Source: a virus
IMG/VR virus record: IMGVR_UViG_3300021079_000001
Location: 47,401 to 111,400 of that record
DNA: 64,000 nt
Reading direction: 5' to 3' (one strand)
Both the position numbers and the translations under genes were made by a program. Under the pieces are notes generated by a model. That model saw only the letters and a program-made list of their open reading frames with translations. It did not search any database and was not told the origin of the DNA. Below are positions 19,367 to 58,310 of the stretch, piece after piece (position 1 is the stretch's first letter; each line of letters begins with the position of its first letter).

Positions 19367-19373
19367 TTAATTT

Positions 19374-19413
19374 GGTAGTTTCGTAGTAATAGTGTAAATT
19401 TACAGAAACTACC
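19374..19413 (+). promoter_or_regulatory. Hairpin and promoter-like element before HNH endonuclease gene
   Basis: GGTAGTTTC (19374-19382) and GAAACTACC (19405-19413) form a perfect 9-bp inverted repeat ending 3 nt before the ATG. TAGTTTCG at 19376-19383 fits the Bacteroidota -7 element but no -33 TTG is properly placed. CTACGA (19344-19349) could pair with TCGTAG (19381-19386), giving the interleaved order seen before other endonuclease genes here, with a 2-nt overlap. Confidence 0.4.
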
Positions 19414-19416
19414 AAT

Positions 19417-20235
19417 ATGTCTACAACAAGACAACAGGCTCCTGTAGTAGAGGGAAGAAGAGTCTGTAAAGAGTGTAAAGAAAACAAATTAATAGACGAG
19501 TATTACAGCAGACACAACTGTATATCTCAGACATGTATAAGTTGTTTTAATATAAAAAGAAAAGCAGCATATAGGTTAAAAAAGGAAGAGCAGGGTATAG
19601 AGTTAAGGAATTTGAAAGTGAAAAAATGCCTATCCTGTGGTGTAGAAAAAGAAAGAACTATAGATAACTATACAACAAGAGGTAGAAATTTCTCTAATAT
19701 TTGCAGAGCATGTACCGATGATGTATTCGAATCTATAAAACAGAATAAAATAAATAAGGGACCCTTACCAGAGAGTAGTACAAGACTGTGTACTAGATGT
19801 ATGGAAGACAAATTAATAGGAGAATTCTATTATTCTGTATCGCATCAAGTATATAGAGATCCTTGTAAAAAGTGTTGGGGATTGAAGTACTATAATAGTG
19901 AAAAAAGAAAAAACTGGTCGAGTGGTAATGTGAATAGAGCAACACGATTATTATCCTCTTATAGGGTATTTGATATAAAGAGGGGATTGGAGTACGGATT
20001 GAGTAAAGAGTATATAAATGATCAGCTTCAAAAGAGTTGCACATACTGTGGGTATCCTGCTACAGGACTAGATAGAATAGATAACACAAAAGGTCATACA
20101 GATGAAAACTGTATACCATGTTGTTGGGAGTGTAATACAGCCAGGATGAGCAACTTCACAGTAGATGAGATGAGAATAATAGGAAGAGGAATAAAAGAAG
20201 TAAAAGACAACAGGTACAAGACAACGACAGTATAA
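19417..20235 (+). CDS. HNH-type homing endonuclease with zinc ribbons
   Basis: 272 residues. Three Cys4-type knuckles are visible (CKECKENK...CISC; CLSCGVEK...CRAC; CTRCMEDK...CKKC). The C-terminal nuclease segment has CTYCGYPATGLDRIDNTKGH...NCIPCCWECN, matching HNH proteins in which the D/H residues bind the metal and scissile phosphate. It is free-standing between virion genes and more AT-rich than them, which suggests a mobile gene. Confidence 0.85.
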   Translation: MSTTRQQAPVVEGRRVCKECKENKLIDEYYSRHNCISQTCISCFNIKRKAAYRLKKEEQGIELRNLKVKKCLSCGVEKERTIDNYTTRGRNFSNICRACTDDVFESIKQNKINKGPLPESSTRLCTRCMEDKLIGEFYYSVSHQVYRDPCKKCWGLKYYNSEKRKNWSSGNVNRATRLLSSYRVFDIKRGLEYGLSKEYINDQLQKSCTYCGYPATGLDRIDNTKGHTDENCIPCCWECNTARMSNFTVDEMRIIGRGIKEVKDNRYKTTTV

Positions 20236-36949: not shown

Positions 36950-37636
36950 CTAGTTCTTGCTGATTGTTGGTTTATATTTCCAGGTATACCCACCTGTACT
37001 TTTTATCTTTCCTTTACATGCATTACTTACTCCACTTCTATGCAATTTTAATTCACTACATGCGATAGCAGCACTTTCCCATTCTTTTATCTTTATACCG
37101 CCTATAGTCATCTGTATAACAGGTCGTATTAACCCTCGTTCTTGTTTTGTTCGATAACTCTTTTGATATTCTTCTTTAGTTCTTTTATAACCTTTTAAAC
37201 CTTGGGATATTCTATCTTTATGTTCTTGGGTTATAACTTGTAATTTTCTAGCTGCTCTTATTTTCTCTTTACTTTCTTTGGAATGTTCAGACACCCCATA
37301 TTCTCCGGTCCCTCTTAAATTGTACCCTATTTTATTATTATGAGTATTAAGTAACTTACACCAGTAATTTTCTCTAGCTTTTAATTCGCTTTTTGAACAG
37401 AGTTCTATTCTTTCAAACTTAAACATCTGTTCACCGTACAAATCCCATGCAGATTGTAGATGAGGGTTTCTATGATAACCATATCTCAACTTCTTCTTAT
37501 GGCTATCCCATCTTTTATTAAAGTGATTTGCATAACCTATATACACTTTATTATTCACTTTACAGGTTATACTATAGATACCGGTCTTATCAACATTCTT
37601 ACTAAAGAACTTTTCCTGTATATATACTTCTCTCAT
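36950..37636 (-). CDS. GIY-YIG homing endonuclease
   Basis: 228 residues from ATG 37636, chosen because the longer frame to 37687 runs through the structured leader. Residues 18-105 have TGIYSITC, KVYIGYAN, R in FNKRWDSH, and ELKARENYW with the catalytic glutamate. A NUMOD3-like segment (GVSEHSKESKEKIRAAR) and a helix-turn-helix end (SAAIACSELKLHRSGVSNACKG) bind DNA. Its final ISKN codons (ATC AGC AAG AAC) repeat, with synonymous changes, the final ISKN (ATT AGT AAA AAC) of the DUF932-like gene upstream. Confidence 0.9.
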   Translation of the reverse strand: MREVYIQEKFFSKNVDKTGIYSITCKVNNKVYIGYANHFNKRWDSHKKKLRYGYHRNPHLQSAWDLYGEQMFKFERIELCSKSELKARENYWCKLLNTHNNKIGYNLRGTGEYGVSEHSKESKEKIRAARKLQVITQEHKDRISQGLKGYKRTKEEYQKSYRTKQERGLIRPVIQMTIGGIKIKEWESAAIACSELKLHRSGVSNACKGKIKSTGGYTWKYKPTISKN

Positions 37637-37741
37637 AACAAAAATTTGGCCTGTAGAACTTTCACTGCGGTAACAGATCCAGCTCAACAGGCCATGAATT
37701 TCTTTGTATAGTTGTTACCGCAACTTATCTATACAAAGGTA
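37637..37741 (-). ncRNA. Pseudoknot-type leader with promoter, GIY-YIG gene
   Basis: Minus strand, 5' to 3': TACCTTTG (37741-37734, a -7-like element without a clear -33), A TGCGGTAACA (37722-37713), B GGCCTGT (37693-37687), A' TGTTACCGCA (37675-37666), B' ACAGGCC (37654-37648), then ATG 12 nt on. A-A' is 10 bp and B-B' 7 bp, all perfect. The interleaved order is a pseudoknot if both form. B' lies where ribosomes load, so control of translation is a natural hypothesis. TTTGTATAGA at the front is shared with the leader at 45980-46084. Confidence 0.6.
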
Positions 37742-38925: not shown

Positions 38926-39034
38926 GGTGATTCTCTCTATATTGTTCTATAAACTCTTCCTTTGCTTGTTTCAGGCCATCTGCTATAACTTCTCTATACC
39001 AGGTACCTGATTTCTCTGCATGTTCTTGTGTCAT
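38912..39034 (-). CDS. Small helical protein (40 residues)
   Basis: Begins MTQEHAEKSGTWYREVIADG and ends in a charged helix with HHEQE. Its ATG overlaps the stop of the HNH endonuclease upstream (ATGA) and its 3' end overlaps the DUF932-like start. The coupling to a homing endonuclease stop suggests the original upstream gene was displaced. Confidence 0.55.
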   Translation of the reverse strand: MTQEHAEKSGTWYREVIADGLKQAKEEFIEQYRENHHEQE

Positions 39035-39657
39035 ATTTCATTGTCTTTTATGTGTTTCCAAGTTCTGTTATATAGTATACAATCCAATGTAGGTTTCTTT
39101 ATATTGTATACTTTCATTATTTCCATTCTATTTTTTCCTTCTTTGTGCATTTTTCTCATTCCTATTACATCACGATCTGTCCATATAGATGTAGCTGACT
39201 TTTCTCCTCTGGGTCTATTGCTATAGTTTCGAAATGGAAATGTCCTACAGGCATGCTGCATATTTTCAGAATGTGTACACCACTCCAGATTCTCTACACG
39301 ATTATTGTCTCTTACCTTATCTATGTGATTGATTTCTGGTTTGTTCTCCGGATTCGGTATAAATGCTATAGCAACAAGTCTATGTACTCTATAATTTGAC
39401 TGCTTATCGTTTTTCGTTAGTGGTAGATACTTATATCCATCTGCATCTATAAGACGTAATAATCTACCTTCTCTTATATGTATGAGAGGCTTGTCAGGAT
39501 TCCATCTATTTCGTCTTGTTACAGTTCTGGTTAGTGACCTAACTCTACCTTGATTGGATACTTCATAGAATTTCTCATATCCAGTTACCGGTTTCCATAT
39601 TTCAACAGCATCGGAGACTGTATTCATCTCTCCGTTTTCTATTCTGCAATTTTCCAT
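39031..39657 (-). CDS. HNH homing endonuclease with NUMOD4
   Basis: 208 residues. EIWKPVTGYEKFYEVSNQGRVRSL is a textbook NUMOD4 motif at the N-terminus. The HNH core has VHRLVAIAF, then PEINHIDKVRDNNRVENLEWCTHSEN, with histidine and asparagines at the metal site. A helix-turn-helix tail follows (RDVIGMRKMHKEGKNRMEIMK). It sits between small genes near the primase and is preceded by a long interleaved-stem leader. Confidence 0.92.
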   Translation of the reverse strand: MENCRIENGEMNTVSDAVEIWKPVTGYEKFYEVSNQGRVRSLTRTVTRRNRWNPDKPLIHIREGRLLRLIDADGYKYLPLTKNDKQSNYRVHRLVAIAFIPNPENKPEINHIDKVRDNNRVENLEWCTHSENMQHACRTFPFRNYSNRPRGEKSATSIWTDRDVIGMRKMHKEGKNRMEIMKVYNIKKPTLDCILYNRTWKHIKDNEI

Positions 39658-39792
39658 AACGTAACATGCACTACATACACAGAAGGCTCATCACCGATAC
39701 CATAGAGGTATGATGCATCTGTGCTGTAGTGCGTATTGTTGAATGGTTATTGACTATGTACATGGTATTCGGTAATGAGCAGTACGAAGGTA
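39658..39792 (-). ncRNA. Pseudoknot-type leader, HNH gene
   Basis: Minus strand: TACCTTCG (39792-39785), A (39780-39762, 19 nt), B GCACTACA (39732-39725), A' (39703-39686), B' TGTAGTGC (39675-39668), then ATG 11 nt on. A pairs with A' over about 18 bp with one bulge and one G-U; B-B' is a perfect 8 bp. The order A-B-A'-B' is the same as in three other endonuclease leaders although the stem sequences differ, which argues for conserved structure. Confidence 0.6.
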
Positions 39793-44997: not shown

Positions 44998-45218
44998 ATC
45001 TGCTCTGTTTTACTGTCTATGTACTGCTGATACAGTTGCTCCCGAGTGTTAGTTTCTTGTTCGAATGTAGAGCATTTTGTAGTTACCCATTCCAGTACTG
45101 CTATACACTCTTGCCTGGAGTACTTTTCCATATATATTTCAATACTTTCTGTCATTCCATGCTTCTCGGAGATATTCCATAATAGCTTATCCTCTCTTAT
45201 TATCTGTTCTGCTGTCAT
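44994..45218 (-). CDS. Small protein
   Basis: 74 residues from ATG 45218 (ATGACAGCAG), which overlaps the stop of the homing endonuclease gene. A longer frame would run back through that gene. Helical and acidic (EQIIREDKLLWNISEKHGM). Function unknown. Confidence 0.6.
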   Translation of the reverse strand: MTAEQIIREDKLLWNISEKHGMTESIEIYMEKYSRQECIAVLEWVTTKCSTFEQETNTREQLYQQYIDSKTEQI

Positions 45219-45979
45219 TCTGTTACTGCTTTTACCTCGTTCATAATACGTTGTCTGGCATTTCTTTTCTTTCTGTAATTGTTTGCACATAATCTACAAT
45301 ATGAGTAGAGACCATCTCCTTTTCTATTTTTTCGACTATGTTTATTGAATTGATCATACAATTTATTTTCACTACACATTCTACATTTTTTGTAGCCTTC
45401 TTTTGGTAAACTGCTTATATAATCTTCATACTCTTTCAACTTTTCAGAGGTCAATACATTCAATCTTGCAAATTCCCCATGGTATTTCAATGCCATTTCA
45501 TTGTATACTACAGCAGCTTCTACTTCTAATTTGCAATTCTTTCTATATGTTACATTATTACAATCTAACTCAGCTACCCAATAACTATATTTTTCACGAT
45601 TCTTTTGTAATGATACACCTTTGTATATGGAAGTAACTTTATCGCTGATTTTTCTTTCACTATTAGCTATATTTTGCCCATTAGTAGCTACTCTCAGATT
45701 ACTTCTCTGATTGTTCAGTGTATTTCTGTCTATATGATCTCCGAATAATTTGGAATCAGTTATAGACAGTATCATTCTATGCATTCGAATAGTTGTATAT
45801 TTTTGTTTACCTTCAAGGTACTCTTTACAGCCACGTCTAGTAACATATATAGCCTCTGTATGATGGTGCTTATAACCACTCCAATTATACTGATTCAACC
45901 ATTCGTAGTCTTCATCATCTACCATTGCATAATTCTCAATAACTGAACCATGTTTTCCACCTAACCATATTTCTTTCAT
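45215..45979 (-). CDS. HNH homing endonuclease with AP2-like DNA-binding domain
   Basis: 254 residues. The N-terminal part has VDDEDYEWLNQYNW, then RMHRMILS and FGDHIDRNTLNNQRSNLRVAT, the HNH core found in phage HNH_3 proteins. SIYKGVSLQKNREKYSYWVAEL resembles an AP2-type DNA-binding domain. A zinc knuckle closes the protein (CRMCSENK...CRLCANNYRKKRN). The ending R-Q-R-I-M-N-E-V-K resembles R-D-R-I-I-Q-E-K at the end of the helicase upstream, with different codons. Its stop overlaps the next start (ATGA). Confidence 0.9.
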   Translation of the reverse strand: MKEIWLGGKHGSVIENYAMVDDEDYEWLNQYNWSGYKHHHTEAIYVTRRGCKEYLEGKQKYTTIRMHRMILSITDSKLFGDHIDRNTLNNQRSNLRVATNGQNIANSERKISDKVTSIYKGVSLQKNREKYSYWVAELDCNNVTYRKNCKLEVEAAVVYNEMALKYHGEFARLNVLTSEKLKEYEDYISSLPKEGYKKCRMCSENKLYDQFNKHSRKNRKGDGLYSYCRLCANNYRKKRNARQRIMNEVKAVTE

Positions 45980-46084
45980 TCCTATAGACTATTATGGCCT
46001 ACCAGAACTAACTGTATGGTACACAGCTTTGTCCTAATAGGCCAATATCTTGATAACGGGTACCATCCGTTTTGTCTATACAAA
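45980..46084 (-). ncRNA. Pseudoknot-type leader, HNH gene after helicase
   Basis: Minus strand: ATTTGTATAGACAA (from about 46085), A ATGGTAC (46066-46060), B TGGCCTA (46044-46038), A' GTACCAT (46022-46016), B' TAGGCCA (46001-45995), ATG 16 nt on. Both stems are perfect 7 bp. TTTGTATAGA, GGTA, GGCCT, TACC, AGTTCT and AGGCC occur in the same order as in the leader at 37637-37741, while stem letters differ in a compensated way. The two are probably homologous RNAs. Confidence 0.62.
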
Positions 46085-46121
46085 TGTCGTACATTTCACT
46101 GGGATTTCCAACTATTTGGTT

Positions 46122-52852: not shown

Positions 52853-53035
52853 TTATTGCTCTTTATTTTTCTGGTTCATGTATTGTTGTGTCTTCTTAAC
52901 TACTATTGGTGGGCTACTTTCATCTATAGGGTACTGGTATGCTTTTTTCTTCGGTTTTCCTGGCATGAATGTATCTTTCCCTTTCCTTGGATTATTGGGG
53001 TAATTGCTGCTGATATCGTCTGTATATTTTGCCAT
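52853..53035 (-). CDS. Small basic protein overlapped by HNH gene
   Basis: 60 residues, basic and proline/lysine-rich (NNPRKGKDTFMPGKPKKKAY), likely disordered or nucleic-acid binding. The upstream HNH gene ends 44 nt inside it in another frame, suggesting the HNH insertion took place at this junction. Confidence 0.55.
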   Translation of the reverse strand: MAKYTDDISSNYPNNPRKGKDTFMPGKPKKKAYQYPIDESSPPIVVKKTQQYMNQKNKEQ

Positions 53036-53480
53036 AGAGTTGTATTATTTCTGTGATATACTTTTCGTGTAATTCTCTTGTATATAATAACATACCTGCT
53101 TTTGTGATATACATCTTGTATGGCTGACTATACTTCAGGTATCGATGTATCAATCCATGATCTTTTGAAGATAGTTCTATAGTGTCTTTCCAATGTTCCT
53201 CATTATATGACCAGTGATGCATTATATTACCAGGAGATTTCTTTATATGACCTGCTGCATAATGGGCTCCTTTCTTTTCTGGATATTTTGCATAGAACTC
53301 GGTTTTCAGTTCTTGCTTCCTCTTTTTCTCCGGTTTTTTCATTGAGACATTACCTGTATGATATTTGTCCACCCTTTCCTGCTTTGTACATTCTTTACAA
53401 CGTGGTCTACATTTACCAGATGGTTTCTTATAGAACTCATCATTTTCCTTTTCTACTTTACATTTTGCACAGACTTTCAT
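52992..53480 (-). CDS. HNH-type homing endonuclease candidate
   Basis: 162 residues. It opens with a Cys4 zinc knuckle (CAKCKVEKENDEFYKK...CRPRCKEC). M-H-H-W-S-Y-N-E-E-H-W and SSKDHGLIHRYLKY supply histidines of an HNH-like site. It has the strongest promoter of the endonuclease genes here and a leader with interleaved stems. The end overlaps the next gene by 44 nt, typical of an inserted free-standing gene. Confidence 0.7.
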   Translation of the reverse strand: MKVCAKCKVEKENDEFYKKPSGKCRPRCKECTKQERVDKYHTGNVSMKKPEKKRKQELKTEFYAKYPEKKGAHYAAGHIKKSPGNIMHHWSYNEEHWKDTIELSSKDHGLIHRYLKYSQPYKMYITKAGMLLYTRELHEKYITEIIQLYGKIYRRYQQQLPQ

Positions 53481-53566
53481 ATAATGAACAATCCCAGTGA
53501 GAGCTTTGGACTGCCATCCTCGGCCCTTACTGGGATATCAATATCTATGATCACTGTGGCAGCAGT
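53481..53566 (-). ncRNA. Pseudoknot-type leader, HNH candidate gene
   Basis: Minus strand: A CTGCCA (53562-53557), B ATCCCAGT (53536-53529), A' TGGCAG (53516-53511), B' ACTGGGAT (53498-53491), then ATG 10 nt on. A-A' is 6 bp, B-B' is a perfect 8 bp. The same A-B-A'-B' order and B'-to-ATG distance occur in the other endonuclease leaders. Confidence 0.55.
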
Positions 53567-53576
53567 AGTATCTTCA

Positions 53577-53607
53577 CAAATCTACTACCTATATTCGATA
53601 TTTTCAA
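53577..53607 (-). promoter_or_regulatory. Bacteroidota-type promoter for HNH candidate gene
   Basis: TTG (53607-53605), 20-nt spacer, TAGATTTG (53584-53577): an exact TTG-N20-TAnnTTTG match. The transcript would start near 53570, just before stem A of the leader, so the folded RNA would lie at the extreme 5' end. Confidence 0.65.
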
Positions 53608-57474: not shown

Positions 57475-58246
57475 ATAGTTGTTGTTTTAGTTGTTTGAAC
57501 TCTCTGTATAATTTGACAGATTCTCTTTTTAACTCTATTATCTCAGGTGTTATATTATTAGTCGGTATACCTATAGTTTCTCGTATCAATGTTTTCACAT
57601 AGGAATCAGTTATCTCTGCACTTCTTTTCAATCCATAATCTTTGAGGTATGCTCTCAACTCAGGACTATCTGCTCTCAATTTTCTCATTTTTTCTGTACA
57701 GCATCCTGTGCAATATGATTCATATGTATTACTTTGTTTTCTATAACCAAAGTTCTCTTTACGATCTTTACTTTCCTTACATCCAAGGCATATTCGATTA
57801 TTTCCCTGATCCCGATCATTCAGCCATTGTCTGTATCGCTTTATTTGATTACGTCTTTCTTCTATTTGTTCAAGGGTTAGATTATCTACTACTGTTCTCA
57901 TTGTTTGTGCTATATAATCAGGAGCAAGTGCTTGTCTCTTTGCTTTTGCTGCTTGGGCTGGAGTTACTCTCTTTACATCTCCGTAGTCATACTTTCTTGA
58001 ACTAAGAGACATCTGATCAATATATGCAGATTTATACTCTTCTAGTGTATTCACTTCAAGTTCTTTCATTCTCCTGGCACGTATCTTATCTGTCCTTTGT
58101 TTGCCATTACATTTCTTACATACAGATCGGAATGATATAGAATCCTTCTTCAGATACCCAACACCTGCTTTAGTTACTTTGGTATACCAGTGTTCATGAG
58201 TTAGTGGAAATTCTACATGGCAATACCCACATATTTTAGTTCTCAT
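57449..58246 (-). CDS. HNH-type homing endonuclease with zinc knuckles
   Basis: 265 residues from ATG 58246 (a longer frame to 58279 lacks support). Begins with C-G-Y-C-H-V-E-F-P-L-T-H-E-H-W and a second pair SVCKKCNGKQRTDK. The middle has RICLGCKESKDRKENFGYRK...CTGCCTEKMR. Helical basic segments on both sides fit DNA binding. The classic HNH signature is weak, so it is a family-level call from the zinc-knuckle layout shared with the gene at 19417. Confidence 0.65.
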   Translation of the reverse strand: MRTKICGYCHVEFPLTHEHWYTKVTKAGVGYLKKDSISFRSVCKKCNGKQRTDKIRARRMKELEVNTLEEYKSAYIDQMSLSSRKYDYGDVKRVTPAQAAKAKRQALAPDYIAQTMRTVVDNLTLEQIEERRNQIKRYRQWLNDRDQGNNRICLGCKESKDRKENFGYRKQSNTYESYCTGCCTEKMRKLRADSPELRAYLKDYGLKRSAEITDSYVKTLIRETIGIPTNNITPEIIELKRESVKLYREFKQLKQQLYGTTETTK

Positions 58247-58263: not shown

Positions 58264-58310
58264 GTAATTGGAAAAACATCTACAGATACCAATACGATAC
58301 CTGTAGATGT
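58264..58310 (-). terminator. Rho-independent terminator or leader pseudoknot
   Basis: Minus strand ACATCTACAG (58310-58301) and CTGTAGATGT (58285-58276) form a perfect 10-bp stem followed directly by five T, as in a terminator for the upstream genes. GTATTGG in the loop (58295-58289) can also pair with CCAATTAC (58271-58264) past the stem, giving the interleaved order seen before other endonuclease genes. Both readings are open. Confidence 0.6.

Follow-up and report, generated by a model that had tools for sequence, protein, structure and literature searches.

The stretch analysed here, hereafter the window, comprises 64,000 nucleotides (nt) of viral DNA, positions 47401-111400 of the 111-kb IMG/VR virus record IMGVR_UViG_3300021079_000001, and the subject of this study is a structured RNA leader located in front of four of its endonuclease genes. 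The best annotated relatives of the DnaB-like helicase of the window are from Bacteroidota and crAss-like phages, at approximately 25% identity. All four genes lie on the minus strand and encode a GIY-YIG plus I-HmuI/NUMOD-like homing endonuclease of 228 amino acids (aa) (36950..37636; Pfam 3.6e-12 and 7.3e-7), a NUMOD4 plus HNH_3 homing endonuclease of 208 aa (39031..39657; Pfam), an HNH_3 (HNH-AP2-type) homing endonuclease of 254 aa (45215..45979; protein match) and an endonuclease VII/HNH-like protein of 162 aa (52992..53480), for which weak PHROGs matches (2e-4 to 3e-3) were obtained and a Pfam search gave no match. Each leader is named below by the first position of its gene. The initial annotation had described two interleaved complementary helices, in the order A-B-A'-B', at 37637-37741, 39658-39792, 45980-46066 and 53481-53562, with B' ending 10-16 nt before the ATG. 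Both helices are present at these positions on the minus strand, and B' ends 10, 10, 15 and 10 nt 5' of the ATG at 37636, 39657, 45979 and 53480, respectively.

The interleaved order, on account of which the leaders had been called pseudoknot-like, holds for all four; however, three of them form kissing hairpins, and only the 39657 leader is an H-type pseudoknot. The 37636, 45979 and 53480 leaders (type I) each contain a small hairpin, P1, close to where the transcript is expected to start, and a larger hairpin, P2; A forms the loop of P1, and A' the apical loop of P2. The contact is therefore of the loop-loop (kissing) type. For the 37636 leader, fold and covariation gave the P1 hairpin AGUUG[CGGUAA]CAACU (37710..37725; kissing loop, in brackets, 37715-37720) and the P2 hairpin UGGCCUGU...ACAGGCCA (37647..37694; kissing loop 37668-37673), the latter with an inner stem, a GGAU/UGAA internal loop and the apical part CUG[UUACCG]CAG. 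By the same means, the P1 hairpin of the 45979 leader was placed at 46055..46071 (AACGG[AUGGUAC]CCGUU; kissing loop 46060-46066), and its P2 hairpin of 14 base pairs, with apical CUGU[GUACCAU]ACAG, lies at 45995..46044 (kissing loop 46016-46022). The 53480 leader has P1, ACUG[CUGCCA]CAGU, at 53553..53567 (kissing loop 53557-53562) and P2, AUCCCAGU...ACUGGGAU with apical GGA[UGGCAG]UCC, at 53491..53536 (kissing loop 53511-53516). The long H-type pseudoknot (type II) of the 39657 leader (39668..39780, minus strand) was identified by interleaved-pairing scan, shuffles and alignment; A (39769-39780) pairs with A' (39686-39697), B (39725-39732 and 39718-39723) pairs with 39668-39675 and 39678-39683, and a small hairpin (39697-39710) lies within the loop. 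Relatives of this sub-class were found on the contigs L043, L079 and probably L042:9381. The A-B joints are mostly 11-50 nt long. P2 of the window leaders lies upstream of about -11 (-16 in the 45979 leader) and leaves the start codon unpaired. The structure adjoins the ribosome-binding region without pairing to it; across the leader family, the structure ends approximately 8-21 nt before the start codon.

Bacteroidota promoters carry a -7 box, TAnnTTTG, and Bacteroidota mRNAs are without a Shine-Dalgarno sequence and show an enrichment of A at -3, -6 and -11 to -15 (PMC7366714). All four leaders start at a box of this type, predicted from the sequence on the minus strand: TACCTTTG at 37734..37741 for the GIY-YIG endonuclease, TACCTTCG at 39785..39792 for the NUMOD4-HNH endonuclease, GACATTTG at 46081..46088 for the HNH-AP2-type endonuclease, where the fit to TAnnTTTG is poor, and TAGATTTG at 53577..53584 for the fourth leader. 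The 37636 and 45979 leaders do share TTTGTATAGA, as had been noted; it represents the promoter -7 region, however, and lies outside the fold. In relatives with sigma70 promoters, such as L260 (TTGACA-16-TATACT), the expected transcription start lies where A begins, and a U-run and a Shine-Dalgarno-like sequence come, in this order, after P2. The same contig, at 2501 and 3492, carries two neighbouring HNH-AP2 genes, both of which have a sigma70-like promoter, a pseudoknot and a U-run of their own.

Conservation of the pairing was then examined by comparison with relatives. Between the 45979 leader and its relative in L072, 14 of 100 aligned positions differ, while 30 of 30 pairs are kept, four of them with changes on both sides. 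Likewise, the leaders of L063 (GIY-YIG), L076 and L085 (both HNH-AP2) show seven double-changed pairs, four of which are in the kissing helix. A covariance model, R1, was built from these three leaders for P1 and P2 only, with the window sequence excluded, and its search of 714 kb matched 37634-37728 (E 1.4e-6; the 37636 leader) and 53478-53570 (E 2.2e-6; the 53480 leader). With these two added, the alignment of five leaders had 20 of 26 pairs double-changed and 99.2% of cells paired, against 7.3 pairs and 73% in shuffled alignments, none of 500 shuffles reaching the observed values. The counts for P1 and P2 are biased toward the fitted model, whereas that for the kissing helix, which is absent from R1, is unbiased: this helix is paired in all five leaders, with five of its six pairs double-changed. 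Two MAFFT alignments of divergent leaders (A2 and A3) were out of register and were left out of the counts. The covariance check proposed in the initial annotation thus gave, by model search and double-changed pairs, covariation beyond 500 shuffles. P1, P2 and complementary apical loops before an open reading frame (ORF) define the leader family, to which the 37636 and 53480 leaders were assigned by the model, the 45979 leader via its pairwise covariation with L072, and the 39657 leader as the H-type sub-class. These results support an interleaved RNA structure family before homing endonuclease genes (HEGs), in which pairing is kept as the sequence changes.

The pairing was also compared with chance expectation. 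In a scan for A-B-A'-B' on both strands of the window, the 39657 (-49.2) and 37636 (-46.5) leaders ranked as the top two, as against a best score of -40.8 among six window shuffles. Dinucleotide shuffles gave z-scores of -6.9 (37636), -5.7 (39657), -4.6 (45979) and -4.1 (53480), and for each leader the observed score was reached by 0 of 150 shuffles. When 2790 leaders from the window and its relatives were scanned, on contigs mostly fetched for carrying HEGs, these genes dominated the top by z-score. For a loop-swap test, P1 and P2 were picked without regard to kissing in 23 box-bearing leaders; the cognate loops had at least 6 complementary nt in 19 of them, whereas 100000 permutations gave 4.3 such leaders on average and never more than 13. 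Covariation, loop swap and shuffle tests agree with the earlier statement that the stem sequences differ and the pairing is kept. Chance complementarity as the origin of the pairing was ruled out by the shuffle and swap controls.

Kissing-loop sequences differ among leaders of one genome, both in the window (four leaders) and in L063 (two type I leaders), which would follow from avoidance of cross-pairing or simply from free drift of the loops. In the L076, L063 and L085 leaders, the P2 internal loop UGA(N)/(N)GAU is conserved and compatible with tandem sheared G-A pairs, and the corresponding loop of L332 is UGAU/UGAU. This conservation suggests that the internal loop may form a specific three-dimensional motif beside the kissing loops.

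The element is broader than the initial annotation supposed, being found in other phages and in front of five or more unrelated nuclease families as well as a few replication-initiator-like genes. Among AT-rich leaders, a score of -32 or lower was obtained for 38 of 118 endonuclease leaders (32%), mostly of HNH-AP2 genes found by protein similarity, versus 5 of 518 leaders of other genes (1%) and 0.3% of shuffles. The best-scoring 'other' genes include an HNH nuclease (L112:1608), an endonuclease VII (L303:4399) and a GIY-YIG-type nuclease (L081:8919), together with a replication protein O gene (L090:5146, minus strand). Strong interleaved leaders also stand before replication-like genes at L142:7829 (plus strand) and possibly L063:8138 (minus strand). 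Leaders of different nuclease families resemble each other with z of 5.5-16 (GIY-YIG/HNH-AP2, NUMOD4-HNH/NUMOD4-DUF559 and LAGLIDADG/HNH). Since its sequence is common to unrelated nucleases, the leader behaves as an exchangeable module, which fits a transfer of the leader between nuclease families that may have occurred as a unit. R1 matched a single locus in 396 Bacteroidota genomes (E 5e-5). Its kissing pair, GUGCAG/CUGCAC, is perfect and new, a TATATTTG box is present, and the gene immediately downstream encodes a T5orf172/GIY-YIG-type nuclease; R1 scans of a class, an order and a second phylum of bacteria yielded no further matches. Three matches were returned when 396 Bacteroidota genomes were searched for HNH-AP2 proteins. 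Searches with an exact DNA pattern of the type I leaders returned two relatives already known and one chance match (L068), and those with a type II pattern returned known leaders and chance coding matches only.

With modest confidence, we favour the interpretation that the element is a promoter-plus-leader cassette of HEGs which acts in cis and keeps nuclease expression low or delayed. Transcription would begin shortly before stem A or hairpin P1, and the 5' untranslated region (UTR) would fold into P1 and P2 with paired loops (type I) or into the H-type pseudoknot (type II). The fold may then restrain or delay the expression of a nuclease that could be harmful, through attenuation and/or weak translation initiation. 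At least 5 U within the 8 nt after P2 were found in 27 of 44 positives versus a background of 9-12%, and a scan for an intrinsic-terminator consensus, limited to short loops, found none. Because many relatives have a U-run after P2 and the ribosome-binding site (RBS) is unpaired, attenuation is an equal candidate to the translation control suggested in the initial annotation; because P2 fills the A-rich -11 to -15 region and is often terminator-like, attenuation, weak initiation or both are likely. A further-reaching proposal, which we regard as doubtful, is that the element is a mobile regulatory RNA module, carrying a promoter of its own and a loop-loop 'code' that diversifies freely, and repeatedly acquired by unrelated selfish endonucleases (GIY-YIG, HNH, LAGLIDADG and PD-(D/E)XK-like), in which the kissing state would act as a conditional switch setting termination or translation of the nuclease, timed in infection.

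Several observations weigh against a cis-acting restraint of nucleases. Repression is not obvious, because the start codon and the proximal RBS are unpaired, and the U-run after P2 is not present in the 45979, 39657 and 53480 leaders, that is, in most of those in the window. The transcription starts were deduced from consensus boxes. The leader is not strictly nuclease-specific, because a few replication-initiator-like genes carry one, and some HNH-AP2 genes, of Bacillus, Microcystis and Escherichia phages, are without such a leader. Finally, the strict hairpin parser of the loop-swap test, applied to eight further leaders, gave one positive versus 0.87 expected by swapping, which is no improvement on swapped loops. 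Direct A-B-A'-B' scoring found several of these eight clearly positive, which indicates that the strict parser misses H-type and interrupted cases; this re-test set is not regarded as a replication.

Among other explanations, that of a leader whose main effect is stabilisation of the mRNA 5' end, or insulation of the HEG from translational coupling to the gene upstream, without repression, is unlikely, though it accords with A or P1 starting at or near the expected 5' end and with the space from transcription start to RBS being filled while the RBS is left open; it does not explain the U-runs in relatives. Quite improbable, in our estimation, is a T4-like sequestration, in which the promoter region in read-through transcripts pairs with the pre-ATG region and blocks translation, whereas transcripts from the gene's own promoter are without this arm. 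T4 I-TevI is an established case of such control, which has also been demonstrated for Aeh1 mobE (PMC2988022, PMC3014915), and the -7 regions of L073, L072 and L070 are complementary to the last nt before the ATG. Over 42 leaders, however, cognate promoter/pre-ATG pairing was no better than swapped pairing (p = 0.43), and P1, P2 and the kissing loops would be left unexplained. Pairing of the RBS or start codon, as in T4-type sequestration, was not found in the family; the sixth case described below, with ATG at 19417, fits it and has the corresponding anatomy. An RNA of about 100 nt, separately terminated and acting in trans on the nuclease (as its partner, inhibitor or guide) while read-through provides expression of the ORF, would agree with the order promoter, pseudoknot RNA, U-run and nuclease seen in many relatives. 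We give this about as small a chance as sequestration, as the leader is common to unrelated nuclease folds, repeats are absent, the U-run is weak in the window leaders, and the kissing-loop sequences vary freely provided they pair.

Self-cleavage had also been raised in the initial annotation, and the A-B-A'-B' order, with the small hairpin of type II, does resemble P1-P2-P3-P1'-P2' of a hepatitis delta virus (HDV)-like ribozyme. The strand order is all that is in common: the phage leaders have long A-B joints, A near the expected transcription start and, in type I, within a hairpin loop, and neither a catalytic core nor a match to an Rfam ribozyme family, so that this reading is highly improbable. 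Rfam 15 covariance models at the gathering threshold gave 0 matches in the window, and E-value scans of three leaders gave nothing credible. Just as little credence is given to DNA-level palindromes or operators, or to chance: some palindromes do surround the -7 box (37636, L085), but the pairing is interleaved, covaries in RNA register and withstands the shuffle and swap controls.

Type III toxin-antitoxin RNAs (ToxI/CptI) have the same order of promoter, pseudoknot RNA, terminator and nuclease gene. They are tandem repeats preceding an endoRNase toxin, whereas the phage leaders are single copies before DNA endonucleases; neither tandem pseudoknot repeats nor a ToxN-like gene was found, there being one structure per leader, and the ORFs behind the leaders are of the GIY-YIG/HNH/LAGLIDADG/DUF559 types. 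In IncI-type plasmid repZ/repA, pairing between the loop of a leader hairpin and sequence close to the start of a DNA-metabolism gene provides a switch; this system differs from the phage leaders in its two-gene leader, antisense RNA and translational coupling. The comparison implies no homology. The repZ/repA leader pseudoknots are cited in PMC10724649.

T4-like phages restrain HEGs with RNA hairpins (PMC2988022, PMC3014915); for I-TevI/II/III, segB and Aeh1 mobE, too, a structured RNA stands immediately upstream of the gene and close to a promoter. The seg43(25) hairpin of Aeromonas phage 25 also lies upstream of the RBS and does not cover it (PMC2988022). These hairpins differ from the present leaders in being single, mostly RBS-sequestering and without loop-loop pairing, and no sharing of one leader among nuclease families is reported for them. 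The autoregulatory pseudoknot of phage T4/T2 gene 32 is likewise located in a phage 5'-UTR, there acting on translation, but it lies 67 nt upstream of the start codon, is bound by gp32 and belongs to another gene and fold (PMC3014915). Open-access literature searches did not find the element described, with incomplete coverage of RNA-motif catalogues, so that an earlier description is possible. We class it as a new family of structured HEG leaders, beside the known single-hairpin restraint in T4-like phages. One covarying architecture without an Rfam entry recurs in environmental and gut phages before unrelated nuclease families. The models R1/R2 and the loop swap provide a handle on the little-studied question of how phages of non-Shine-Dalgarno hosts keep free-standing HEGs in check, and the natural loop-loop pairs are candidates for regulator tests.

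Two weaker cases of the initial annotation, a fifth and a sixth, do contain hairpins, but neither is a pseudoknot. The fifth is a terminator-like hairpin followed by a U-run (58268..58310, minus strand), just upstream of the likely start at 58246, for which no interleaved partner was found. A plain annotated terminator, also without an interleaved partner, stands right before the RBS of an HNH-AP2 gene of Bacillus phage Stahl (L231:1108-1148). The sixth, on the plus strand (19372..19415), was recognized from its sequence as the hairpin GGTAGTTTC/GAAACTACC, with arms at 19372-19382 and 19405-19415; the 5' arm overlaps a predicted -7 box, TAGTTTCG (TAnnTTCG), and the 3' arm ends 1 nt before ATG 19417 of an endonuclease VII-like gene. 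This anatomy, resembling the sequestration of T4 I-TevI, would place such an arrangement in a crAss-like relative. In 145 kb of leader-bearing loci, Rfam 15 models matched nothing over the leaders and only tRNA/tmRNA elsewhere; a permuted tmRNA match together with a tRNA is located at L302:4510-4739, on a phage contig with a leader-bearing HNH-AP2 gene.
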